64,000 nucleotides of DNA from Diabrotica undecimpunctata (lineage: Eukaryota > Arthropoda > Insecta > Coleoptera > Chrysomelidae): positions 117,158,049-117,222,048 of the forward strand of contig NC_092808.1 of the NCBI RefSeq assembly GCF_040954645.1. The letters run 5' to 3'. Positions 3,482-45,057 of the stretch are shown here, in pieces. Position 1 is the stretch's first letter. Every line of letters begins with the position of its first letter. The notes beneath the pieces are model-generated. The model was not told the origin of the DNA, ran no database searches, and saw only the letters and a program-made list of their open reading frames with translations. The position numbers and the translations under genes were made by a program.

Positions 3482-4233
3482 GTTCCAAAGGAACAAGAAG
3501 AAGAGGAACAATCTGGCTTTAGAGCGGGAAGGATCTGCACCGATAATGTGTTTGTTTTGAAACAAATAATAGAAAAAAGATCAAGTACCAACCAACCTTA
3601 TGTTTATAGACCTTCAGAAGGCCTATGATACTGTACCCGCTAAAAAGCTATGGAAAGTTTTGCAGAAAACAAACATTAACCACACAGTAATTAACGCCCT
3701 TAAACAGCTTTATAAAGGATCAACGTCGGGAATAAAAATTGGAAATAGACTTTCAAAAAAATTTCCTGTAAACAAGGGACTCCGGCAGGGGTGTTGCATA
3801 TCCCCCACATTGTTTAAAATCTACGTGGTGAAAGCAGTGTATCAGTGGAAGAGAAAGTGCAGAGGAATGGGTATTGACCTAGGAGAAACTTGCCTATATA
3901 CCCTACAGTTTGCAGACGATCAAGTCCTTATAGCCAACGATAAAGAAGACCTGACATATATGGCCAGAAAACTACAGGAAGAATACAAAAAGTGGGGTTT
4001 AGAACTCAATACACAAAAAACAAAATATCTCCCAATAGGCGCAGAACTATCCAACATTCAGATGGACACAATCGAAATTGCATTCTGCACTGAATATGCC
4101 TACCTAGGAATTGATTTCGACACCACAGGCACAGGCAATAGGGAAATTAGAAAACGAATAACCCAGGCCCGTAGAACAGTTGGATGCCTTAACGGAATTG
4201 TTTGGAGCTCAGAAATTGGTAAAAGACGAAAAT

Positions 4234-4267
<34 letters not shown>

Positions 4268-4686
4268 TCTCTCATAAAAACCAGCTTAACCTATGGTACA
4301 GAGACATGGAGACTAACAGAAAGCAATAAAAAAAAACTCGAAGCAACAGAAATGGATGTATTTAGACGATCACTTCGAATATCTAGGGCAGACAGAATTA
4401 GAAACGATGAAATAAGAAATAGGATGGGGTAGATGGATCAATGGCAACAGACATAGAAAGGAAACAACTTATATGGTATGGCCATGTTCAAAAAATGCCA
4501 GAAACAAGACTACCAAAAATCGCCATGAAATGGATACCACCAAATCGTAAGAAACGAAGAAGACCAAAAAGAACGTGGAAGGAGGGAATAACAAAGGCAA
4601 TGAGCTCCCGAGACTTGACCGAAGAACAATGGAATGATAGAAATTCGTGGAAATTAGGCATTGAACAACGACGCAAAACGTTTTGA
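3482..4686 (+). pseudogene. RTE-type LINE reverse transcriptase fragment
   Basis: Starting near EEEQSGFRAGR and continuing with FIDLQKAYDTVP, KGLRQGCCISPTLF and the catalytic LQFADDQVLIA, this is the palm of a non-LTR reverse transcriptase of the RTE-like group common in insects. After the palm come a thumb-like stretch with YAYLGIDF and the C-terminal tail (LTYGTETWRL, then LIWYGHVQKMPETRLPK and a basic RRPKRTWKE block). It is broken by a frameshift near 3598, a (TA)n tract at 4237-4264 and a stop near 4431. The 5' part (endonuclease and fingers) is missing, the usual 5' truncation of LINE copies. A second (TA)n tract lies directly after its stop. Confidence 0.88.
4237..4264. repeat. (TA)n microsatellite inside the LINE
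   Basis: Twenty-eight bases of alternating A and T interrupt the LINE coding sequence between the thumb and the C-terminal tail. Confidence 0.97.
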
Positions 4687-5345: not shown

Positions 5346-5468
5346 AACTTAGTGCCTTTTTGAAAAAGCTGCTACGCGTACGAGATACACATTATTTTGT
5401 ATTCAAAGTGTTATAACTGTATATGTAAAAAACAATTTCTTCTAAAGTTGCGGACTCTCTTTAAGTAT
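5346..5468. other. Left flank of the Gypsy insertion
   Basis: No gene seen. The last four bases (5465-5468, GTAT) are the left copy of the target site duplication of the Gypsy element; the right copy is at 11619-11622. Confidence 0.75.
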
Positions 5469-5815
5469 TGTTGTGAATTTATTAATTGTTAAGTCTTTAA
5501 TTTATAATGTCTTGTTCTTATCTTAATTCATTAAAAAGCACAATGACTGATATTTATTTATTTTCACTAAACATACATAATTTATTAAAAAGCGAACGTA
5601 ACATTTTATCGCGAGCGCGTCGTCCGAATTAACTGCCCTCCATATAAAAATGTTGTATTTATATACGAAATCCTGATATACTAGAACAGCATCGAAAGAT
5701 CGAGAAGCTTGGCCGGCTCATTCACCATAATTTTGGTTCTAGACTTCCACCGAAATTTCTACAATAAAACAGAATAATTAGTCATAAAAGTTAGGCCAGT
5801 ATATTTATCGTAACA
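5469..5815 (-). repeat. 3' LTR of the Gypsy element
   Basis: 347 bp; read on the minus strand it begins TGTTACG and ends AACA, giving TGTT...AACA ends. It carries AATAAA motifs in its last part. The stop codon of the gag-pol ORF (5805-5807) lies inside it. Confidence 0.97.
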
Positions 5816-8800
5816 TTGCCCCCCTCTTAAAAGATGGTTCCTCCTGGAACCTTGTCGGGACTGGAACCGGAACTGTATGCTGGTATCGGCAACTGGACCC
5901 TCTTTTACAACTTCCAGTTGTATAAAAATGACAAGGGACGGTTTTCTCTCCGCACCAGTAACTATGCGGATTGCAACAGACTAACACCTGGACTTCGGTG
6001 TCTTTAAAGATCTCCTCCACCATATTTCGGATAACCCTCCAATCTAATTGGCGGCACTCCAACTTTGGCATGGCTAACTTTTGCACGTCGGACTCTAGTA
6101 CGTGCCCTCTCAATTGAAGTAAGGCTTCCCATACATCTCGGTAGGTAGGTTGGTCACGGGCAGTGTCTTTTGTTACCAGGTAGAAAAGGTAACGTGATGC
6201 ATCTTGGAGTTTCAAGGTTTTACCGGGAGCTGGCACTTGGCATTGAAGTTCTGCAACTCGACCAAACTTCCTTCGAAAGACGGATGCCAACCCTGGTGCG
6301 TCTTTGATACTGGCCGGGATGGTAAGGGCCAGCGAGTAGTCATCGGGGAGCGCGAGTAGATCTTGCTTTTCTTCAGTGGTAACACCATGTCTCGCTTTAC
6401 CGGTACCTCCATAGGCACCCATGAATTCCTCAAACGTGAGGTCAGACACATCTTGGACTTGGTTTACTTCCACTTCTTCATCTACGTCGTGGTCACCTTC
6501 GAAAGATGCCAACCGGTTATGGTGTACTATCATCGGCTTTCCCCTCGGAATCTTGCTTATTCGGTAGATGACATCGTTGATCTTCTCCATGATGAGGTAT
6601 GGACCTTCCCAAAACTGCTGCAATTTGGGAGAACAACCTTTTCGCTTCTTGGGATTATACAGCCATACTTTGTCGTTCTTCTTAAAGCAACCCTTTTCGG
6701 CTTGTGTATCGTACCGTTTCTTCATTCGGTCGCTAGCAATCTGAAGGTGGGAACGGACCAACTCATGTACATCGTCCATTCTTCTTCGTAATTCGATCAC
6801 ATAATCTTCACCTGCTACATCTTCTCCAGGTCGACACCCAAATTCTAGATCACAAGGTAGTCGCATTTCGCGTCCGAATAGGACTCTGGCTGGTGTCTGG
6901 CCCGTTGATTCGTTAACAGCAGATCTGTAGGCCATTGTGAAGAACGGAAGGTATTGGTCCCAGTCTCGCTGATGATCGGACACCATCTTTGTCAAATACT
7001 TGCCAACTGTCCTATTCATTCGTTCTACCATACCATCCGATTGCGGATGATACGCGGTAGTTCTTGTTTTCTTCATGCCTAGTCTATCACATATTCCTTG
7101 AAATAGATCACTTTCGAAGTTCCTGCCTTGGTCACTATGGATCTCCAAAGGCACTCCAAATCGGCTGATATATTCTTGGATCAACTTATCTGCAACGGTG
7201 GCGGCCTTCTGGTCTGGAAGTGCGTAAATCTCGACCCACTTAGTGAAGTAATCCATTACTACCAACATGTACTTGCCCCCATTTTCACTTTCTGGAAATG
7301 GCCCTGCAATGTCCAAAGCTATTCTTTCAAACGGGCTTCCAACATTATATTGTCTCATAGGAGCTCTCCTTTTCCGGTGAGGCCCGTTACTCGTAGCACA
7401 AATAGTACATTTCTTACACCAGTCTTTTACGTCGTCGGAACTGTTCATCCAATAAAACCGTTCCCGAATTCGCTGAAGGGTTTTCCTTACACCAAAATGC
7501 CCTCCCGATGGACTGTCGTGTAACTGACGAAGTACTTCGGCTATTCTGCTCTTTGGAATCACCAACTGTCTTCTTTTCTCTGAACCGTCATCATTTTCCA
7601 GGACTCGTTTGAGCAAGCCATCTTCGATGATAAATGAGTCCCACTGGGCCCAATACGTCTTAACTACTGAGCATAGGTTTGATATTTCCTGCCAAGGTGG
7701 TCGACGGTTTTCCTCTTTCCATTTTCGGATTTTCTGTATAACTGGATCTCTCTCTTGTTCTTCCCTTATCTTAGTGGGCGTCCAGTCGTCGTTGACAATC
7801 GTCGTTCTTAGCACTGCTGCTTCCTTGGATTCCGTTTTGTTGCAGTGGGGACACTCTGCTGGGCATGGCCGTCTGGAAAGAGAATCAGCGTTTCTGTGGC
7901 TAACTCCGGCTCGGTGCTCAATCTTAAAATCGTATTCTTGGAGTCGTTCGATCCACCTGGCTATCTGACCCTCTGGATTCTTAAACTGCATCAACCACTT
8001 AAGGGCGGCATGGTCGGTTCGGATTAGAAACTTTCTTCCATAGAGGTATTGATAGAAGTGCTCTACTGATTTCACTACTGCCAGAAGTTCTCTTCTCGTG
8101 ACGCAATAATTCCGCTCAGGTTTTGAAAGAACTTTACTAAAATATCCGAGGACTCGTTCCTGTCCTCCTTGAATCTGAGACAGCACTCCTCCAATTCCCA
8201 CATTACTTGCATCTGTATCTAAGATGAACTCTCCTTCTGGCAGTGGATACCCTAAAATTGGTGCTGTTATTAAATGCTTTTTCAAGGTCTCAAAGGCATT
8301 TTGGCAGTCTATATCCCAGCGGTATTCTCTTGCTTCCTCTGTAAGTCGCGTTAATGGCTTAGCGATATCTGCAAACTTCTCAATAAACCTCCGGTAGTAA
8401 GTACATAGTCCAAGAAAACTTCTCACTTGATGTTTGTCAGTTGGTTTTGGCCATTCCTTAATGGAATCGATTTTTCCCTTATCCACGGCCACTCCTTCTT
8501 TACTGACTATATGACCCAGATAATTGACTTTACCTTGAAATAGCTGGCACTTTTTGGGGTTTAGCATCAATTGGGCAGCTTTAAGTCGATTAAAAACGTT
8601 TTCTAAATTCCTCAAATGATCTTCGAATGTCTCCCCCAAGACGATTATGTCATCTAAATAAACCAGGCATGTTTTCCAAGATAACCCTCTCAACACATTT
8701 TCCATAAGCCTCTCAAATGTCGCAGGAGCATTACAAAGTCCAAATGGCATAACGTTGAATTGCCACAATCCAGATCCTGTGGTGAAGGCTGTCTTTTCTT

Positions 8801-11195
8801 TATCGACTGGGTCCATTTCTACCTGCCAGTATCCAGACTTCAAATCTAAAGTAGAAAACAATTTACTTCCAGCCAATGTGTCCAATGTGTCATCGATCCG
8901 AGGCAGAGGATAACTATCTTTCTTGGTAACGTTGTTCAGCAAACGGTAATCCACACAGAACCTCGTCGTTCCGTCTTTCTTCTTAACCAGGACCACCGGA
9001 GAGACCCATGGACTCGTAGAAGGTTCTATCACCCCGTCTTTCTTCATTTCCTGAACAATCGTTTCAGCTTCCTCTCTCTTCGCCTGTGGTAATCGTCGAG
9101 CTGTTTGACGAATTGGCTTAGCATTACCAGTATCAATTTTATGCTTAACAACGGTAGTTCTTCCCGTCTTTCCTCCTTTCGGTACGAAAATATCACGATA
9201 CTGCCGAAGAAATTCCCTTAATTTCCTTTTCTCCATCTGATTTAGAGACTGTCCTGCAACTGCAACCATTTGGTCGAATTTGTCGTTGGAATTATCAGAT
9301 GTTGTCGCCTGACGAATTATGGATGTCACAGGTACACAAGTTCCTACTTTTGTCTCTTTCTTTATGGTCACTGGGTAGTCGTTGACATTGATAAGTCTCA
9401 CAGGAATTTCTTTAGCCGAAGTCACCAATTCCTTTCCAATTATGATTCCACGGCCAACCTCATCGTCGTGGTTCCAAGGCTCCATCATAACAGGTCTCCC
9501 TTCGTCTACAATTCCCTGTAGTCGCGCTACTATGATCGTTTCGCTTCTCGCAGGTACGACTGTATCTTCTGTAATGGCTGCTTGCACAGTGTTGTCATTA
9601 TGTGGATGGAGAAATACCTCCTCGTTGCCAACTTTGATTACCTTATTCTTAAAATCCAATTGGAATCCATGCATATTCATTACGTCCATTCCTAATATAA
9701 CATCCTCTTCGATGTCAGCAACTATAACAGTATGGACAAACTTTTCTGCCCCAATTCCCAATTGTACCTGGATTTCTCCATGAGTGTTGGCATTTTCACC
9801 TGTAGCGGTCCGAAGTCGTAACCTCGTTGGTAACAGTTTCTTTCGGCTGTTTATAACTGTCGGGCGTATAATGGTTCTGGTCGCTCCGGTATCCACCAAC
9901 AACGTATGCTTTTTACCATTTATGTCTCCATCTACATATACACTATCTTCACGACATTTCAAAGAAGCTATTAGTATAAGAGGGTCTTTGGAAGAGTTCC
10001 GGGTCGAAGCTGCCCCCCTAAGGTTGACTCGTTCTGGTTTTCCTGATGGTGAGTTTCTTGATTTTATGGTCTTCTTTTTCTTGCATGTCATGCTTTTCAT
10101 CAAATTAAAGAGCTGGTCAAGTTTATCTTCATCTCCTTCCTCTTTTACAGTCCTAACTTTACTGTAACCGCCAGAGGCCTGCGTAGCTGACTCGTATTCG
10201 AGGGCGGCGGATAAAACATCAACCAGCGTCTTGTGACGAGCTAATCGTAGTGTTCTCTGCATTTCATGATCACGAAGACCATCAATAAACGTTTGAACGG
10301 CCAATTTTTCCATCATGTCTTCGGGAGCTGTTGGATAAGCATATCGTACTAATCTGGCAATATCTACCTCATATTCTTGAAGAGCCTCATCTTTCTTCTG
10401 TCTACGATTTTTAAGCTGCGACTGATATACATGTTCCAAATGTTCGTGGCCATATCGCATATTTAACCTCTTCTTCAGTTGTTCGAAATCATCGGTCTCC
10501 TCTACGGCTATGGTCTGAAGCACATCTAAGGCATCTCCTCGAAGAGCGATAGTCAGGTTTACAGCCTTTTCTTTTTCAGACCATCCATTTGCTCTTGCGG
10601 CTGATTCGAACTGTTTCATGTAGTTGTTCCATGATGATTTTCCGTCGAAAGTTGGGACTTTAACATGAATAGAACCTCCACTTCCTTCAAATTTCGGCCG
10701 TGTCTCCAACTTAAATTTCGTCTCGTCTTCTTTTATCTCCACTGTAATCGGATTGTTACCTCTCTCTGCTGTCCCTGTTTCTTCCATCTTCCTTTCCATC
10801 TGTTTAATCTTTTCTTCGAAGGCCAACTTATCGGCAGCAACTTGGTTTTTTAACGAAGATATTCTATCGTCCAGGGCAGACATCTCAGAAGTGACTTTAG
10901 AGATTTCCGAAGAGATGTTAGCAGAGACTTTGCTTTCCAGAGAAGAAATCTCGTTAGAAACTTTGCTTTCTAAAGAAGCGATGTCGCCGGATACTTTGTT
11001 CTCCAATTTCGAAATCGACGAGATGACAGCATCATGTTTGTCTTCAAATATATAAGTCTCTGGGTCTAGTCCTTCTTCTAGCAAAGCGTTCTTTAGTCGT
11101 TGGACTAACTCAGCCTTTTTTCCGGTGGAAGATAATTCTCTGTCTTCAAGATGTCTTCTTAAATTAGTCACTGTCAGCTCATAAATCGTAGCCAT
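5805..11195 (-). CDS. Gag-Pol polyprotein with SAP, macro and CCCH domains
   Basis: One uninterrupted 1796-residue frame from ATG at 11195 (a GTG two codons upstream is less likely); it serves as Gag and Pol together, with no frameshift. Domains in order: SAP-like helix-extended-helix about 4-42; coiled coil about 56-140 with repeated SSLESKVS-type units; Gag core about 178-343; protease with DTGA at 435-438 and ILGMDV at 500-505; reverse transcriptase with YLDD 846-849; RNase H with D993, E1036, D1061; integrase zinc site H1226, H1233, C1263, C1266; DDE triad D1295, D1355, E1391 (spacings 59 and 35); GPY/F module about 1530; then a TARG1-like macro domain about 1609-1741 and a CCCH finger C1755, C1763, C1769, H1773. 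No CCHC knuckle follows the Gag core. All polymerase and integrase catalytic residues are present. The last residues are encoded by the polypurine tract and LTR. Confidence 0.96.
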   Translation of the reverse strand: MATIYELTVTNLRRHLEDRELSSTGKKAELVQRLKNALLEEGLDPETYIFEDKHDAVISSISKLENKVSGDIASLESKVSNEISSLESKVSANISSEISKVTSEMSALDDRISSLKNQVAADKLAFEEKIKQMERKMEETGTAERGNNPITVEIKEDETKFKLETRPKFEGSGGSIHVKVPTFDGKSSWNNYMKQFESAARANGWSEKEKAVNLTIALRGDALDVLQTIAVEETDDFEQLKKRLNMRYGHEHLEHVYQSQLKNRRQKKDEALQEYEVDIARLVRYAYPTAPEDMMEKLAVQTFIDGLRDHEMQRTLRLARHKTLVDVLSAALEYESATQASGGYSKVRTVKEEGDEDKLDQLFNLMKSMTCKKKKTIKSRNSPSGKPERVNLRGAASTRNSSKDPLILIASLKCREDSVYVDGDINGKKHTLLVDTGATRTIIRPTVINSRKKLLPTRLRLRTATGENANTHGEIQVQLGIGAEKFVHTVIVADIEEDVILGMDVMNMHGFQLDFKNKVIKVGNEEVFLHPHNDNTVQAAITEDTVVPARSETIIVARLQGIVDEGRPVMMEPWNHDDEVGRGIIIGKELVTSAKEIPVRLINVNDYPVTIKKETKVGTCVPVTSIIRQATTSDNSNDKFDQMVAVAGQSLNQMEKRKLREFLRQYRDIFVPKGGKTGRTTVVKHKIDTGNAKPIRQTARRLPQAKREEAETIVQEMKKDGVIEPSTSPWVSPVVLVKKKDGTTRFCVDYRLLNNVTKKDSYPLPRIDDTLDTLAGSKLFSTLDLKSGYWQVEMDPVDKEKTAFTTGSGLWQFNVMPFGLCNAPATFERLMENVLRGLSWKTCLVYLDDIIVLGETFEDHLRNLENVFNRLKAAQLMLNPKKCQLFQGKVNYLGHIVSKEGVAVDKGKIDSIKEWPKPTDKHQVRSFLGLCTYYRRFIEKFADIAKPLTRLTEEAREYRWDIDCQNAFETLKKHLITAPILGYPLPEGEFILDTDASNVGIGGVLSQIQGGQERVLGYFSKVLSKPERNYCVTRRELLAVVKSVEHFYQYLYGRKFLIRTDHAALKWLMQFKNPEGQIARWIERLQEYDFKIEHRAGVSHRNADSLSRRPCPAECPHCNKTESKEAAVLRTTIVNDDWTPTKIREEQERDPVIQKIRKWKEENRRPPWQEISNLCSVVKTYWAQWDSFIIEDGLLKRVLENDDGSEKRRQLVIPKSRIAEVLRQLHDSPSGGHFGVRKTLQRIRERFYWMNSSDDVKDWCKKCTICATSNGPHRKRRAPMRQYNVGSPFERIALDIAGPFPESENGGKYMLVVMDYFTKWVEIYALPDQKAATVADKLIQEYISRFGVPLEIHSDQGRNFESDLFQGICDRLGMKKTRTTAYHPQSDGMVERMNRTVGKYLTKMVSDHQRDWDQYLPFFTMAYRSAVNESTGQTPARVLFGREMRLPCDLEFGCRPGEDVAGEDYVIELRRRMDDVHELVRSHLQIASDRMKKRYDTQAEKGCFKKNDKVWLYNPKKRKGCSPKLQQFWEGPYLIMEKINDVIYRISKIPRGKPMIVHHNRLASFEGDHDVDEEVEVNQVQDVSDLTFEEFMGAYGGTGKARHGVTTEEKQDLLALPDDYSLALTIPASIKDAPGLASVFRRKFGRVAELQCQVPAPGKTLKLQDASRYLFYLVTKDTARDQPTYRDVWEALLQLRGHVLESDVQKLAMPKLECRQLDWRVIRNMVEEIFKDTEVQVLVCCNPHSYWCGEKTVPCHFYTTGSCKRGSSCRYQHTVPVPVPTRFQEEPSFKRGAMLR
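5816..5828 (-). promoter_or_regulatory. Polypurine tract (plus-strand primer)
   Basis: Read on the minus strand this is AAGAGGGGGGCAA, directly before the 3' LTR start TGTTACG. It is the expected primer for plus-strand DNA synthesis and is also translated as part of the gag-pol frame. Confidence 0.9.
5877..5933 (-). other. CCCH zinc finger coding segment
   Basis: Encodes CHFYTTGSCKRGSSCRYQH, a C-x7-C-x5-C-x3-H finger as in RNA-binding CCCH proteins. It is the only clear zinc-binding module outside integrase in this polyprotein and may stand in for the missing Gag knuckle (inference). Confidence 0.85.
5976..6377 (-). other. TARG1/OARD1-like macro domain coding segment
   Basis: The translation contains APGLASVFRRKFGRVAEL, then RYLFYLVTKDTARDQPTY, then LAMPKLECRQLDW and NMVEEIF. 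This order and wording matches the TARG1 (OARD1) branch of macro domains: the glycine loop before a Phe-x-x-Lys-Phe-Gly helix, the Arg-Tyr-hydrophobic-Tyr-Leu-hydrophobic-Thr-Lys strand, and the Met-Pro strand. The lysine equivalent to the TARG1 catalytic lysine is kept (K1676). The GCGLD loop that carries the TARG1 catalytic aspartate is shortened to ECR, so hydrolase activity is doubtful while ADP-ribose binding remains possible. Confidence 0.82.
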
Positions 11196-11251
11196 TTTCA
11201 CAATTTATTTTATATTCACTTATATTATTATTATAAGTCTAATTTATGTTC

Positions 11252-11269
11252 GATCTCACTCTGACACCA
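11252..11269 (-). promoter_or_regulatory. Primer binding site
   Basis: Two bases inside the 5' LTR, the minus strand reads TGGTGTCAGAGTGAGATC. TGG is the usual start, complementary to a tRNA CCA end. I cannot name the tRNA with confidence. Confidence 0.75.
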
Positions 11270-11271
11270 TT

Positions 11272-11618
11272 TGTTGTGAATTTATTAATTGTTAAGTCTT
11301 TAATTTATAATGTCTTGTTCTTATCTTAATTCATTAAAAAGCACAATGACTGATATTTATTTATTTTCACTAAACATACATAATTTATTAAAAAGCGAAC
11401 GTAACATTTTATCGCGAGCGCGTCGTCCGAATTAACTGCCCTCCATATAAAAATGTTGTATTTATATACGAAATCCTGATATACTAGAACAGCATCGAAA
11501 GATCGAGAAGCTTGGCCGGCTCATTCACCATAATTTTGGTTCTAGACTTCCACCGAAATTTCTACAATAAAACAGAATAATTAGTCATAAAAGTTAGGCC
11601 AGTATATTTATCGTAACA
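11272..11618 (-). repeat. 5' LTR of the Gypsy element
   Basis: 347 bp, same sequence as 5469-5815. It is followed in the plus-strand direction by the GTAT target duplication (11619-11622). Confidence 0.97.
11458..11468 (-). promoter_or_regulatory. Candidate TATA box of the 5' LTR
   Basis: The minus strand reads TATATAAATAC in the middle of the LTR, with AATAAA-type signals downstream (near 11396-11401 and 11363-11368), a plausible U3-R layout. The transcription start is not known. Confidence 0.45.
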
Positions 11619-11622
11619 GTAT

Positions 11623-25209: not shown

Positions 25210-26775
25210 AATATACTTCACATAGAGTTCAAAATGAGCTAATAAATATATGTGGCTTAGTTGTTCGACGGCAAATTATCGAAAAAATAAACCATCCAAA
25301 CACAATCGCATTTTCCTTGCTTGCCGATGAGACTGCAGATATATCTGGAGTCGAACAACTATCTATTGGGGTGAGATATGTTGAAAAACAAACAGTTAAC
25401 GGAAATATAATTCATGAAGATTTTTTGGGTTTTGTACCATTAAATGAATTAAATGCTAAATCAACAGCACTTGAAATTTTAACATTTCTTTCAAAAAATT
25501 TATTTAAATGTGGAAAAATTGGTGGGGTTGGGATTTGATGGATGTGCAACTATGGCTGGCCAAGAGGGTGGTGTTCAAAAAATAATTAGAGAAAAACATC
25601 CCAAAGCATTATTTTTTCATTGTGCCTCACACAAATTAAATCTGGTTGTTAATGATTTAAATACTGTTAGAGAAATTCAGAATTGTGTGGGAATTATTAA
25701 AGATGTCATCAAATTTTTTCGTGATAGTACTTTGAGACGGCGATTAGCACCAAACATACCTTTGTTATCCGAAACTCGCTGGTCATCAAAATACAAATCT
25801 ATTCGAATATTTTCAGAAAATTTTATTGAAATCAAAAATGTTTTAGAAACAATAATAGCAGATAACAAATTTAATTGCTCAACAAGATCAAGAGCACAGC
25901 AGCTTTCAAGTGCCACATCTGATTCCACTTTTATAATTTCCCTAAATTTGATTTGCAAATATTCTTCTTTCTTAGAACCCATAGTAAACATTTTACAAAC
26001 TAAATCAATAGATATGCTGGCAGTTAAAAATCATATACAGTTATTTCTTGATATGATAACAAAGCATAGACAAGAAGCGGAAACAACTTTTAAAACAATT
26101 TTTGACAAGAGTACAAATGATGCCGAATCTCTAAGTATTACCCTTGAAAAACCACGAACCGCTCCTAGAAAGCAAACACAACGGTCAAACCATGCGGTTA
26201 ATTCCGCTGAAGACTTTTTTAGAGTGTCATTATTTATTCCGTACCTAGATTTTTTAATTAGTTCTCTTGGTGTCAGATTTTCAGAAGACAATAATCCTGA
26301 TATGTTATTGTATAACTTGCATCCCAAACACATAATAAAATTAACTGAAGCAGACCTCTCCAAAATAATAGAAATCATAAATAATTTATACAAAATTACT
26401 AATCTAAAAGAACAGGCATCATTGTGGCTCTATTATTGGAAAAATCAAACCAATTTAGATGTAGAAGATATTTCAATGATAGAGCTACTAGACCATTGCC
26501 TATTTTACCCAGCTATAGCCCAAGCTATAGAAATTTCTCTGTGCCTTCCTCCCACTACATGCACGATTGAAAGATCATTTTCAACTCTTCGAAGGGTTAA
26601 AACCTGGATTAGGTCCACTATAAGTGAACAAAGATTAGATGGACTATGTATGATGAGCGTTCATAGAAATAAAATAGAAAACAATCGAAATAATTTTATT
26701 AAAAAAGTAATAGATGAGTTTGGACAAAAGCCCAGAAACCTTCAGTTTTTATTTTCACAAGATACAGAGCACTAG
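25210..26775 (+). pseudogene. hAT transposase, N-terminally truncated
   Basis: Begins in the RNase H-like fold with SHRVQNELINICGLVVRRQI and IAFSLLADETADISGVEQLS (first catalytic Asp region), continues after a one-base frameshift near 25515 with LVGLGFDGCATMAGQEGGVQ (second Asp) and FFHCASHKLNLVVNDL (CxxH motif), a long insertion domain, SETRWSSKYKS, and the C-terminal dimerisation region with CTIERSFSTLRRVKTW and EQRLDGLCMMSVHR. This is the ZMYM1-like or 52-kDa-repressor-like branch of hAT. The BED zinc finger and start are missing, lost at the (TA)n junction. From 25510 to the stop at 26775 the frame is fully open. Confidence 0.92.
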
Positions 26776-30777: not shown

Positions 30778-31772
30778 GTAGAAAGTAGAATCCGGATACA
30801 AAATGAATTAACGGAAACAATAGATGTGAAAAAGGGACTACACCAGGGAGACGCTCTATCATGCATCTTGTTCAACATCGTGCTCGAGAAAATACTGAGG
30901 GACACAACAGTCAATACACGAGGAACAATCATTAATAAAAGCGTGCAAATACTAGCATTTGCAGATGATGTTGACATAATCGCAAGATTAAGAAGAGAAA
31001 TGATAGAGGCATACAACCAAATAGAACGAGCTGCACAAAATAGTGGTCTTAAAATCAATCAGACCAAAACAAAATATATGCAGGTAAGAAAAAACGCAGA
31101 AATAAGGCAGCCACAAAATATAACAATAGGAGAATACAACATAGAGGAGGTAAAAAACTTTATATACTTGGGATCCCTAGTCACGTCTGATAATAACGTT
31201 ACGGAGGAAGTGAAGAGGCGAATATTTATTGCAAATAAATGTTACCATGGCTTAATTAGACACCTAAGATCAGATAACGTCGCAAGAAAGACAAAATGCC
31301 AAATATATAAAACCCTAATAAGACCGGTACTCACATATGGCTCAGAAACCTGGACACTTACTAAAAGAGAGGAAACGTTGTTAGCCACCTTCGAAAGAAA
31401 AATCTTGCGACACATATATAAGGGCACAAAAGAAAACAGAATATGGCGAAGACGATACAACTCTGAACTATACAAAATATACCAGGATCCGGATATTATA
31501 ACATTCATCAAAATAGGACGGCTGCATTGGATAGGACATGTAGAAAGAATGGAAGAAGGCGAAATATCAAACAAAATATTCAAATAGATGCCAGTAGGAA
31601 AAAGAACAAGAGGAAGACCGAAACTGAGATACTTAGAACAAATAGAAAATGATATAACAACCTTAAAAATAAAAAACTGGAGAAAAAAAGCACGAAACAG
31701 ATCGTAATGGAGAAGAATCCTAGAACAGGCCAAGACCCAAAAAGGGTTGTCGAGCCAGTGATGTTAATGATG
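30778..31772 (+). mobile_element. RTE-type LINE insertion with 14-bp target duplication
   Basis: AAATCAGCTCCTAA occurs at 30764-30777 and again at 31773-31786, directly bounding the LINE. The copy begins in the RT palm, so it is 5'-truncated, and ends with a TGATGTTAATG tail. Confidence 0.88.
30790..31707 (+). pseudogene. RTE-type reverse transcriptase, palm to C-terminus
   Basis: A 253-codon open frame from 30826: VKKGLHQGDALSCILFNIVL, VQILAFADDVDIIAR (catalytic FADD), LKINQTKTKYM, NFIYLGSLVTSDN, KTLIRPVLTYGSETWTL, RLHWIGHVERMEEGEISNKI, then a stop at 31585 (where Lys-Met-Pro would continue) and PVGKRTRGRPKLRYLEQIEN. The RNA-binding C-terminal basic motif GKRTRGRP is kept. The catalytic site is intact but fingers and endonuclease are missing. 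Confidence 0.9.
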
Positions 31773-32385: not shown

Positions 32386-33849
32386 AAAGTAATACCCAGA
32401 GAATGGACAAATGCAGTAATTATACCTATATACAAGAAAGGAAACACAAGAGACTGTAGGAACTATAGAGGTATATCACTACTATGTGTAGCAGCAAAAG
32501 TATACGAAACCATAATAGAAAGGAAAATTAGAAAAGAAATAGAACATAAATTAGAGGATGTACAAAGTGGATTCAGGAAAGGACACAACACACAAGACCA
32601 TATATTCACCATGTAACAAGTAATAGAAAAAGCCTTAAAGAAAAATAAAGAAATACATCTAAGCTTTATAGACATGGAAAAAGCATTCGACTTAGTCAAA
32701 AGAAAAGATATATGGGAAAGCCTAAAGAAGAAACAAGTAAGTGAAGAACTGATAGAAGCAACAAAAAGTATATACATGAAAACAACAAATACAGTAAGAA
32801 TGTTAAATATACAGTCAGAACCATTTGAAACAACCCAAGGAGTTAGACAAGGGGGAAGTCTCAGCCCAGTACTATTCATAAATGTAATAGATGAGATAGT
32901 GAAATAATGTAAGAAAACATTCAAGAAATACTGCATCGGTTGGAACAAAATGCAAATGATAAGTGCTGAGATGTGTATATTTGCAGACGACATAGTATTA
33001 ATTGCGGAAACTGCAGAAAAACTGAAATACAACTTAGAGAAATGGAACCTAGAAGCAAGCAAATACAACTTAAACGTAAACAAAGAGAAGACTCAAATAA
33101 TGAAAATATCAAGGAAACAAGGGACGGAAGATCAAATAGAAGTAATGATAGATCAACAAAAAATAATACAGACAAATTCATACAAATACTTAGGAACAGT
33201 AATCAACAACAAAGGAGACATCGAGGATGATCTTAACAACAGAATGGAAAACACAGGAAAACTATTCCAAGCACTAAATAGAGGATTCCTTAATAACAAA
33301 GAAATATCAACAAAGACCAAGATGACAATATACAAAACAATATATAGACCTACAGTGACATATGGAGCAGAAAATTGGATATTAAACAAAAGACATCAGA
33401 GCAGAATTCAGGCAGCAGATATGAAATACCTTAGAAGAACGATAGGAGTAAAAAGAACTGATAGAATCAGAAATGAAGAAATAAGAGAAAGACTCAAAAT
33501 CAAACCGATATTCGAGTCAATCAAAGAGAAAAAATTGGCATGGTTCGGACATCTAACCCGGATGGACAATAATAGACAAGTAAAAAGAGTTTGGGACGCC
33601 AAACCAATAGGGAAGAACAGAAGAGGAAGACCCATTAAAGAATGGAACAGTGACATCTCGCAGATACTGCAGAGTAAGGGTAAGACTTGGCAGGAAGCAA
33701 CACAGATGGGATCCAATAGGAAGGAATGGAGAAAGTTCGTTAAGAGCTAGGACACCTCAGAAGACTGTCAAATATTGCAATTTAATGAATTGTATTTTAA
33801 ACGGCCCAACACCGAAAGGTACAAATGGGTTCTACTGATTAAGTAAGTA
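32386..33849 (+). mobile_element. RTE-type LINE insertion with (TAAG)n tail and target duplication
   Basis: AGTAAGTTTATTAT occurs at 32372-32385 and again at 33850-33863. The right copy follows a TAAG repeat tail, so its first bases are ambiguous. The element starts in the RT fingers and ends after the C-terminal tail. Confidence 0.8.
32395..33750 (+). pseudogene. RTE-type reverse transcriptase, fingers to C-terminus
   Basis: REWTNAVIIPIYKKGNTRDC, NYRGISLLCVAAKVYE, DVQSGFRKGHNTQDHIF (then a stop at 32614), LSFIDMEKAFDLVKRKDI, TTQGVRQGGSLSPVLF, a stop at 32905, then CIFADDIVLIAETAEK (catalytic FADD), SYKYLGTVINNKGDI, TIYRPTVTYGAENWIL, LRRTIGVKRTDRIRNEEI, LAWFGHLTRMDNNRQVKRVW and GKNRRGRPIKEW. 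Only two internal stops disturb a region of about 450 codons, and the last 266 codons (32950-33750) are open, so this copy is fairly young. Confidence 0.92.
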
Positions 33850-43018: not shown

Positions 43019-45057
43019 CCTCCTGAGACCCAGAGTATTTTTTTAAATATTTTCAAAGTATTTTGGATTTTTGCCGTTTTATTTGACTTATACTTACAGC
43101 AAAAAATGACAAAAAAAATATGCCATGGAAAATATGGCTTTTCTCAATGCCATATACATATGACATTGGGTCTATCTATTAAGAAAATAAACTCGAACAT
43201 AAGAAAGAAAGACTACAATAAATACTCATATCTTTTAACAATCTTTTATTAGTCATTATTTTTATACACAGTACAATGTATTAGACCTCAGTCTTTGGTA
43301 TGAAACTTTAAAAAACAATTTCTTTTTCGTGTTCTACATAAAAATATCTTACATTTTGTACAAAATGCAGTTGTGGTATTTTTACAATTGATCTTTCTGC
43401 AACTATTTTGTTTATCAGCATAGTCCACTAAATGTTCAGCCTTATGAAGTCGTTTAACTTCGGCAGGTATGGGTTGAATTTCGACTCTTCGTTTTTTATG
43501 TTTTGGCTCCAGGTCTTCGTAGTCGCTACATGTTTCAGAATCGGAGGACTGTGTGTTGTCCAAAATCATCTGCTCTCCCATATCTAATTTGAATGATCTC
43601 AATTGAGGAATGGTTTTGGTTGGTACATGTTTTTCGTTTTGTACTGCTCTGTATTGATACCAAGAGTTGCAAACTGCTAAATCTAGCATGTGGCTGATGA
43701 AACGAATTGTCCACTGCCATCATTCTGTCAACAAGGTCAACTCCGCCCATGAACCGGTTATAGTTTTTGATCACCTCAGGTCTATTAACCATTTCGTATT
43801 CCTTTTTACATTTTGACCATCTTCTGCATTGATCTGGGTTGTTAGCAGCATGGTATGTTGACAGAATCGTAACAGGTGTGTTCTCTAACCAGCGAGTTAT
43901 GGCAATACTTCCATCACCTCGAACCTTCGTTTCTGATGTGCCTCTTGGATTTTTCGTGAACTGTTTTTCTGGTGAAAAGATACAATTCCGAGGAACTCTC
44001 CTGTTTACAATCGTGCCTGTTGCGTGGAAACCTCTTTCTAGTAATATATCAGCAAGTTTTATTGTCGTAAAATAACGATCAAAGTAAAGGTGATGACCAG
44101 GAACAAGACTTTCACACAAACTCAGAATTGCTGATTCACCCAAGCCATATTTCTGTGTTGTAAGCTCTGGGAATGTTGAATCACCCTGATATACTATCAT
44201 ATCGCATACTAACCTATTGGGATTGGCAAGTACAAAAACCTTAATACCAACAGGGTTTGGTTTTCCTGGGCAGTATTGACGAATTCCGCAATGACCGCTG
44301 AAAGGTATTATCATTTCATCTATACTTATATTATCAGATCTTATTTGAGCATGACAACCATTTAATATACTGTTGAACAGAGGTAAAACTTTCCAAATTT
44401 TGTTTATTCTTTGTTGATCATTGATTTCATCATCATAAACAACCTTTAGAGATGTTCTGATTGTAAAAAATCGGATTCGCGTCATAGCATTTTTGACGAT
44501 TGAAACACCATACTTTCTCGACCAATACATTCTAATCGTCGGGAGCTCTATAGCACTCATAACAAATAGGATGCCAATAAATGTTTTTAACTCTTTACTT
44601 GTCAACTTCAGCTCTGTTCCTTTTCTTTCTACATATGTTCTATTTGTTGCTACAGTCATGGTTTCCAATATGCGGTCATCAATATATTGCTTAAAAAAAT
44701 CTTCGGGAGTCCATAACTGACAATCCATATCTTTAAACCTTGGCACCACGACTACAACCTGCTCTGATAGATCTACGAAACGTACGTGTTTTTTGTGTTA
44801 GTGACGATGAGAGTGATAATACTGACTCAGATGGAGCCTCTGAGGTTTCTTCTGAGGTGTCCGAGTTGTCTGAAAAATTTATGTAGTCAGAATCGTCATT
44901 ATCTGATTTTGGCGACACAACTAAGGCATCTTCTTCATCATCGGAAAGGTTTAAATCCGATTCGTAAAGAAGCTGTTCAAGTTCTTATTGGGTTAGTGCT
45001 GCAACAAATGAAACATTTGTTACATTGTCGAAAGTCATACAACATTGTCAGTATACA
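43019..45057 (-). mobile_element. piggyBac-like element
   Basis: A nearly complete piggyBac transposase on the minus strand, with TTAA at 43015-43018 and 45058-45061, the target typical of piggyBac. The terminal repeats could not be matched convincingly. GACATTGGGTCT near 43164 and, inverted, TACATAGGGTCTTAA near 45059 share a motif, so the ends may lie a little differently. Confidence 0.6.
43288..44996 (-). pseudogene. piggyBac-type transposase, nearly intact
   Basis: N-terminal acidic region (LNLSDDEEDALVV near 44950; then SDNDDSDYINFSDNSD), a one-base shift near 44745, then a 400-codon open frame: DMDCQLWTPEDFFKQYIDDR, LTSKELKTFIGILFVMSAIE with LPTIRMYW, SDNISIDEMIIPFSGHCGIR (first catalytic Asp in IDEM), GHHLYFDRYFTTIKLADILL (second Asp in YFDR), NYNRFMGGVDLVDRMM (third Asp in GGVDL). 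A frameshift near 43700 leads into LDLAVCNSWYQYR and the C-terminal Cys-rich domain (CRKINCKNTTTAFCTKCKIF then LCRTRKRNCFLKFH). All three catalytic Asp are present; only about two shifts and one stop (in TQ-stop-ELEQ) spoil it. A likely splice acceptor TTTGTTGCAG precedes the N-terminal part at about 44997. Confidence 0.88.

Follow-up and report, generated by a model that had tools for sequence, protein, structure and literature searches.

A TARG1-type macro domain behind the integrase of a Gypsy retrotransposon

The stretch of DNA analysed here (the window; 64,000 nucleotides, positions 117,158,049 to 117,222,048 of contig NC_092808.1, assembly GCF_040954645.1) comes from the chrysomelid beetle Diabrotica undecimpunctata and contains, on its minus strand, a Ty3/Gypsy retrotransposon bounded by long terminal repeats (LTRs). 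Gag and Pol of the element are encoded in a single open reading frame (ORF) at 5805-11201 (window numbering, as throughout), which begins with GTG at 11201, has its first ATG at 11195 and runs through 1,798 amino acids (aa) without an internal stop codon. Behind the integrase the frame continues into a macro domain of the TARG1/OARD1 type (5976-6365, minus strand). A sequence-only reading of this DNA had proposed such a domain in this position, and the proposal is borne out by phmmer search, a profile of relatives, alignment and structure prediction.

When window 5856-6377 was compared with the sequences of the Protein Data Bank (PDB) by phmmer, the top five matches were all human TARG1 (C6orf130), with E values of 7e-22 to 1e-21 and about 81 bits, which as a sequence match is far above chance level. 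A profile search, as suggested by the sequence-only reading, gave E=1.4e-40 with a profile made from 11 relatives. The general Macro model of Pfam left the window copy unmatched at E<=1; this was not counted as a negative result, because the match to human TARG1 reaches E=7e-22 and the same Pfam model recognises six of the 11 sequences in alignment A2 (best E=7.8e-07). Structure prediction, also suggested beforehand, gave a macro domain folded at high confidence; a first fold made with a shallow alignment and long flanks (predicted local distance difference test score, pLDDT, 48.9) was discarded. All five motifs that had been read from the sequence (FRRKFG, RYLFYLVTK, PTY, LAMP and EEIF) are present, and so is the key lysine, at 6168-6170. 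The domain shares fold, branch and lysine with TARG1 at 33-35% identity, and both its sequence and its predicted fold place it among the ALC1-like macrodomains. Judged from sequence and model together, its assignment to the TARG1 branch, fused to a Gypsy polyprotein, is fully supported. Two further features lay beyond the sequence-only reading, namely the loss of the second catalytic loop and a CCCH zinc finger at 5877-5933.

Organization of the element

All features of the element lie on the minus strand. The ORF is enclosed by an exact repeat (5468-5815 and 11271-11618, 100% identity) which, with one base trimmed, gives LTRs of 347 bp with TG...CA ends, the 3' LTR at 5469-5815 and the 5' LTR at 11272-11618. 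The flanking sequence shows the unstranded target-site duplication GTAT on one side at 5465-5468 and on the other at 11619-11622. A candidate primer-binding site read by eye, TGGTGTCAGAGTGAGATCG (11251-11269), lies two bases inside the 5' LTR and resembles the 3' end of a leucine transfer RNA. A candidate polypurine tract, AAGAGGGGGGCAA (5816-5828), likewise read by eye, adjoins the 3' LTR and doubles as coding sequence for part of the ORF tail. At 5805-5828 the ORF crosses this tract, and its stop codon falls within the 3' LTR; the conserved C-terminal tail (KRGAMLR here, SLKEGVML in relatives) is thus partly set by the tract. From the identical LTRs, the GTAT flanks, the candidate primer site and the polypurine tract we infer that the element is young and complete.

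The polyprotein begins with a SAP domain (11082-11177, PF02037, E=9.5e-07), followed by Gag (10269-10553, PF03732, E=8e-08), an aspartic protease (9675-9935, PF13975, E=9e-12), reverse transcriptase (8505-8987, PF00078, E=5e-39), RNase H (7932-8240, PF17917, E=1e-34), the H2C2 zinc-binding domain of integrase (7386-7559, PF17921, E=6e-21), the integrase core (7044-7331, PF00665) and the p58_C or GPY module of the integrase C-terminus (6507-6605, PF22938, E=3e-13). PF00665 hit the core as two neighbouring parts (E=2.4e-05 and 0.15), both under the Pfam cut-off because the domain was divided between query pieces. Downstream of the macro domain is the CCCH finger (C-x7-C-x5-C-x3-H; PF00642, E=9.6e-07, over the cut-off), whose region also matches CPSF4 fingers. 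The order protease, reverse transcriptase, RNase H, integrase, the GPY/p58_C tail, the TG...CA ends, the short target-site duplication and the candidate primer-binding site and polypurine tract are those of a Ty3/Gypsy element. Pfam named no envelope domain in four pieces spanning the whole ORF, and there was no chromodomain among its matches at E<=1 to the C-terminal pieces.

The SAP domain is of a DNA-binding type, and the N-terminus of Gag is an unusual site for a DNA-binding module. The first 70 residues of a relative, P0009 (see below), match the window SAP piece weakly (35% over 62%, score 35). A single regular expression detected no CCHC zinc knuckle in residues 1-667 of the window protein (9201-11201), nor any in the relatives P0009, P0011 and P0014; in members having the CCCH finger, RNA binding by the nucleocapsid might be taken over by this C-terminal finger.

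Other mobile elements are found elsewhere in the window. A 404-residue ORF at 43538-44749 (minus strand) carries a DDE_Tnp_1_7 transposase domain (E=9e-58) and is taken by us to be of the piggyBac type; a hAT dimerisation region lies at 25510-26772 (plus strand), and three reverse-transcriptase fragments of other elements at 3600-4274, 30826-31584 and 32950-33747 (plus strand).

Relatives sharing the fusion

Protein searches yielded 6 relatives from 33 candidates and then, with a 1,132-aa query, 7 from 973, for 13 proteins in total. An earlier search with a 931-aa query had scored none of its 363 candidates, and the sampling of relatives is not exhaustive; the length rule accounts for P0009 alone, the other six proteins (1,205-1,446 aa) lying within the length range of the first search. 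The survey of relatives proposed in the sequence-only reading found the integrase C-terminus joined to the macro domain in every polyprotein or fragment that spans the junction, nine of nine (the window element, P0002 and P0008-P0014). P0008 is 82% identical to the window element over 1,340 columns, and P0009-P0014 are 54-61% identical over 1,197-1,827 columns. The source labels of P0009 (Klebsiella pneumoniae) and P0011 (Erysiphe pulchra) were taken as contamination and not used as hosts. The CCCH finger is present in five of the nine records that reach that far (window, P0002, P0008, P0009, P0010) and absent in the other four (P0011-P0014).

Four relatives are short gene models named 'ADP-ribose glycohydrolase OARD1-like', of which P0003 and P0004, from Diabrotica virgifera, are 75% and 83% identical to the window element, P0006, from D. 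undecimpunctata, is 48% identical with an inner stretch missing, and P0005, from Nilaparvata lugens, is 44% identical. P0003 contains the element linker FMGAYGGTGKARHG, P0004 the element end TGKARHG and P0006 the integrase tail end HHNRLAPF, and P0005 starts with MANLEMS, near the linker MANLDLS of polyprotein P0012. By these sequence marks the four models appear to be tails of Gypsy elements and not host TARG1 genes. That short insect models carrying this name can be transposon tails is a warning for annotation. P0007 is a chimeric gene model that bears the name of a tachykinin receptor and contains a short piece; it was excluded from counts and trees; P0004 and P0006, with partial domains, were excluded from the trees.

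Active site of the macro domain

The catalytic scheme given for human TARG1 in PMC7050489 has Lys84 attacking the ribose, after which the intermediate is resolved by the acidic residue 125; the paper writes Glu125, and the human sequence itself shows aspartate. The enzyme strips ADP-ribose from proteins and nucleic-acid ends and is described as the sole hydrolytically active ALC1-like member in animals (PMC7050489). It also removes ADP-ribose from thymidine in DNA, for which Lys84 is required, and whether human cells have a DarT-like writer of this DNA mark is given as an open question (PMC8501950).

The alignment column of Lys84 holds lysine in all 13 element rows (in the window at 6168-6170, minus strand). 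With P0007 omitted and P0004 ending upstream of the second loop, 12 rows cover that loop, and its GCG-x-D form is present in seven (P0005 and P0009-P0014) and lost in five (window, P0002, P0003, P0006 and P0008), which have ECxxLxW instead. In the window LECRQLDW (6039-6062, minus strand) replaces IGCGLDRLQW; substitutions and the deletion of two residues have removed both glycines and the aspartate and left the loop shorter by two. All 15 comparators (human TARG1 and 14 bacterial or viral-contig sequences) have the lysine, and the 14 of them that cover the loop all have it intact. Since the window domain and four relatives are without the acidic partner at position 125 and the GCG loop, the window domain can be classed as a TARG1 homologue, but not with confidence as a TARG1 enzyme.

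Differences from TARG1 extend to the first loop, which is MGAGIA in TARG1, SRGIA or TRGIA in six of the seven loop-bearing elements and SRGTA in P0005; the GAG of this loop is missing in 11 of 11 element rows. The serine position of the TARG1 HCIS motif is alanine in six and threonine in one of the seven loop-bearing relatives. Taking these sequences together, the element family is probably a hydrolase by origin, and the window branch has probably lost hydrolase activity, the loss of the loop making ordinary TARG1 chemistry unlikely in the window element.

Capture history and evolutionary rate

For the eight elements having both macro domain and pol, the macro alignment did not reject the pol topology (approximately unbiased test, p=0.44); support is low, at 49-74%, for several of the nodes. 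A wider tree set the 11 element macro domains apart from 15 human, bacterial and viral-contig comparators with 100% support, the human protein being the one cellular animal TARG1 included. One old capture followed by descent together with pol is the simplest reading, and it fits these trees best. On the pol topology the macro domain changed 2.6-fold as fast as pol outside the pair that contains the window element, 4.0-fold on the stem of the pair and 4.3-fold within it. The rate ratio is 1.65 (bootstrap 0.98-2.88, above 1 in 95 of 100 replicates), which is suggestive of a mild relaxation of selection in the window branch without establishing it.

Scanning viral contigs with the single window protein gave 2 pattern-matching stretches and no relatives. 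Scans with alignment A2 gave 6 of 49 viral and 8 of 54 prokaryotic stretches at 28-35% identity, and these 14 serve as comparators only; a plasmid scan gave three bacterial records at 24-28% identity.

Comparison with known macro domain systems

Apart from its likeness to TARG1, the window domain differs from that protein in being fused to gag-pol, in the loss of the GCG-LD loop within its branch and in the absence of GAG from all the element rows. The second-best fold match is the macrodomain of DarG, the antitoxin of DarT, which keeps the lysine of the TARG1 pair without the acidic partner (PMC7050489), as does the window domain. DarG belongs to a bacterial two-gene system and is 15-24% identical to the window domain, which is not part of a DarT operon but the C-terminal part of a retrotransposon ORF.

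Macro domain capture by a retroelement has a precedent in the epsilon-like endogenous retroviruses of fish, which carry macro domain ORFs (review PMC4977317, citing Basta et al. 2009); as described there, these are additional ORFs, whereas in the Gypsy polyprotein the domain is fused to the integrase. Other conflict genes (TRADD-N) have been found fused to retrotransposons (PMC8195603), and 'transposon' in PMC12222879 denotes a vector. Among the open-access matches listed, taken by title and opening of the abstract, none described a macro domain fused to the integrase of a Gypsy element or of any other LTR retrotransposon, in agreement with the sequence-only reading, which knew of no such family.

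In a Foldseek search of BFVD, folds resembling TARG1 came up among the predicted proteins of several viruses linked to arthropods, several of them named after thrips, the best match being VP8 of Kadipiro virus (35% identity, template modelling (TM) score 0.91 by query length); phage and alphavirus macro domains are in the same list. Unlike the Gypsy element, these are RNA viruses, Kadipiro virus among them, and some of the matched viruses are known from arthropods without being named after them. The viruses and the Gypsy element are presumed to have captured the domain separately, and with such folds in viruses it is plausible that the domain has been deployed more than once against ADP-ribosylation in arthropods.

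Interpretation of the captured domain

The account that we favour, although we put it slightly below an even chance, is that a captured TARG1 was inherited with pol and that the window copy is now a non-hydrolytic C-terminal module of integrase that binds or scaffolds. Within the range covered by the trees, a Ty3/Gypsy lineage would have taken up a TARG1 gene a single time and placed the copy behind integrase in the single gag-pol frame, to be inherited with pol thereafter. Seven of the 12 rows that cover the loop still have both the GCG motif and the lysine/aspartate pair, so in the ancestor the domain most likely served to remove ADP-ribose, with the element's own complementary DNA (cDNA) or RNA ends, the integration complex or restricting host proteins as possible targets. 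Fusion to integrase would bring such an eraser onto the cDNA and to its ends, a location that favours the clearing of cDNA, RNA or the integration complex, or the undoing of a host PARP response. In the window branch the second loop would then have collapsed while fold and lysine stayed, and the retention of fold, lysine and CCCH finger suggests a binding or scaffolding module working alongside that nucleic-acid finger. Several observations weigh against this account. With human TARG1 the lone cellular animal sequence in the tree, there may have been several captures from different arthropod TARG1 genes. The faster change of the macro domain in the window branch could reflect relaxed selection just as well as a new role. 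The loop-bearing relatives are likely, on their sequences, to be competent hydrolases, a judgement kept short of certainty by the departure of their first loop from that of TARG1. Finally, the loss of the loop glycines argues against ordinary ADP-ribose binding too.

Much of the same evidence bears on the other explanations. The macro domain might be a degenerate passenger, functionless after loop loss, in a frame kept for the CCCH finger and the polypurine-coded tail downstream; loop loss in all five window-branch members that cover the loop, the 1.65-fold higher rate relative to pol and the near-equal identity of the window element and P0008 in macro domain and linker (68% and 69%) speak for this, but the model still folds at high confidence, the lysine is unchanged, the identity to P0002 is 74% in the macro domain and 53% in the linker, and the rate increase is not clearly above 1, so that we consider the passenger unlikely, if a serious contender. 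A hydrolase of the DarG kind, using the lysine alone to free single-stranded DNA, for instance the cDNA of the element, of ADP-ribose, would explain why that residue persists without its partner; because the window branch is also without both loop glycines and two residues shorter, we regard this as improbable. Chromodomains target integration and in chromoviruses lie behind the integrase, where they are likewise captured domains, though with another fold and ligand. By analogy the macro domain could be a reader that tethers integrase to ADP-ribosylated chromatin or breaks: it stands directly behind the integrase C-terminus, its fold was kept while the loop was lost, and chromodomains are among the accessory domains recognised in the polyproteins of LTR elements (PMC6338049). 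Such a reader is hard to reconcile with the GCG-x-D loop kept by seven relatives and with the loss of loop glycines, which should weaken ADP-ribose binding, and we hold it to be a shade more doubtful again. An artefact, either a match by chance or a Gypsy element and a host gene wrongly joined in assembly, has nothing in its favour and is scarcely credible given E=7e-22 to human TARG1 and one open ORF enclosed by identical LTRs and a target-site duplication; the artefact is refuted by the same junction in nine polyproteins or fragments from separate records.

Macro domains of RNA viruses are tools of counter-defence, and the sequence-only reading had suggested that the element's domain might act against host ADP-ribosylation. 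Viral macrodomains are discussed in PMC7050489. For the family such a role is plausible, with seven relatives keeping the loop, and for the window copy it is weakened by the loss of that loop. In the boldest form of the non-hydrolytic binder account, which is rather unlikely as a whole, an insect Gypsy lineage has long carried an integrase module descended from TARG1 that strips host-made ADP-ribosylation from the element's cDNA or integration complex, and one branch has since turned it into a non-hydrolytic binder. If true, this would mean that retrotransposons in insects are restricted by ADP-ribosylation. An element that needs TARG1-type activity would make its ADP-ribosylated substrates testable, and a TARG1 module inherited within a retrotransposon family would mark ADP-ribosylation as a pressure on retroelements too.
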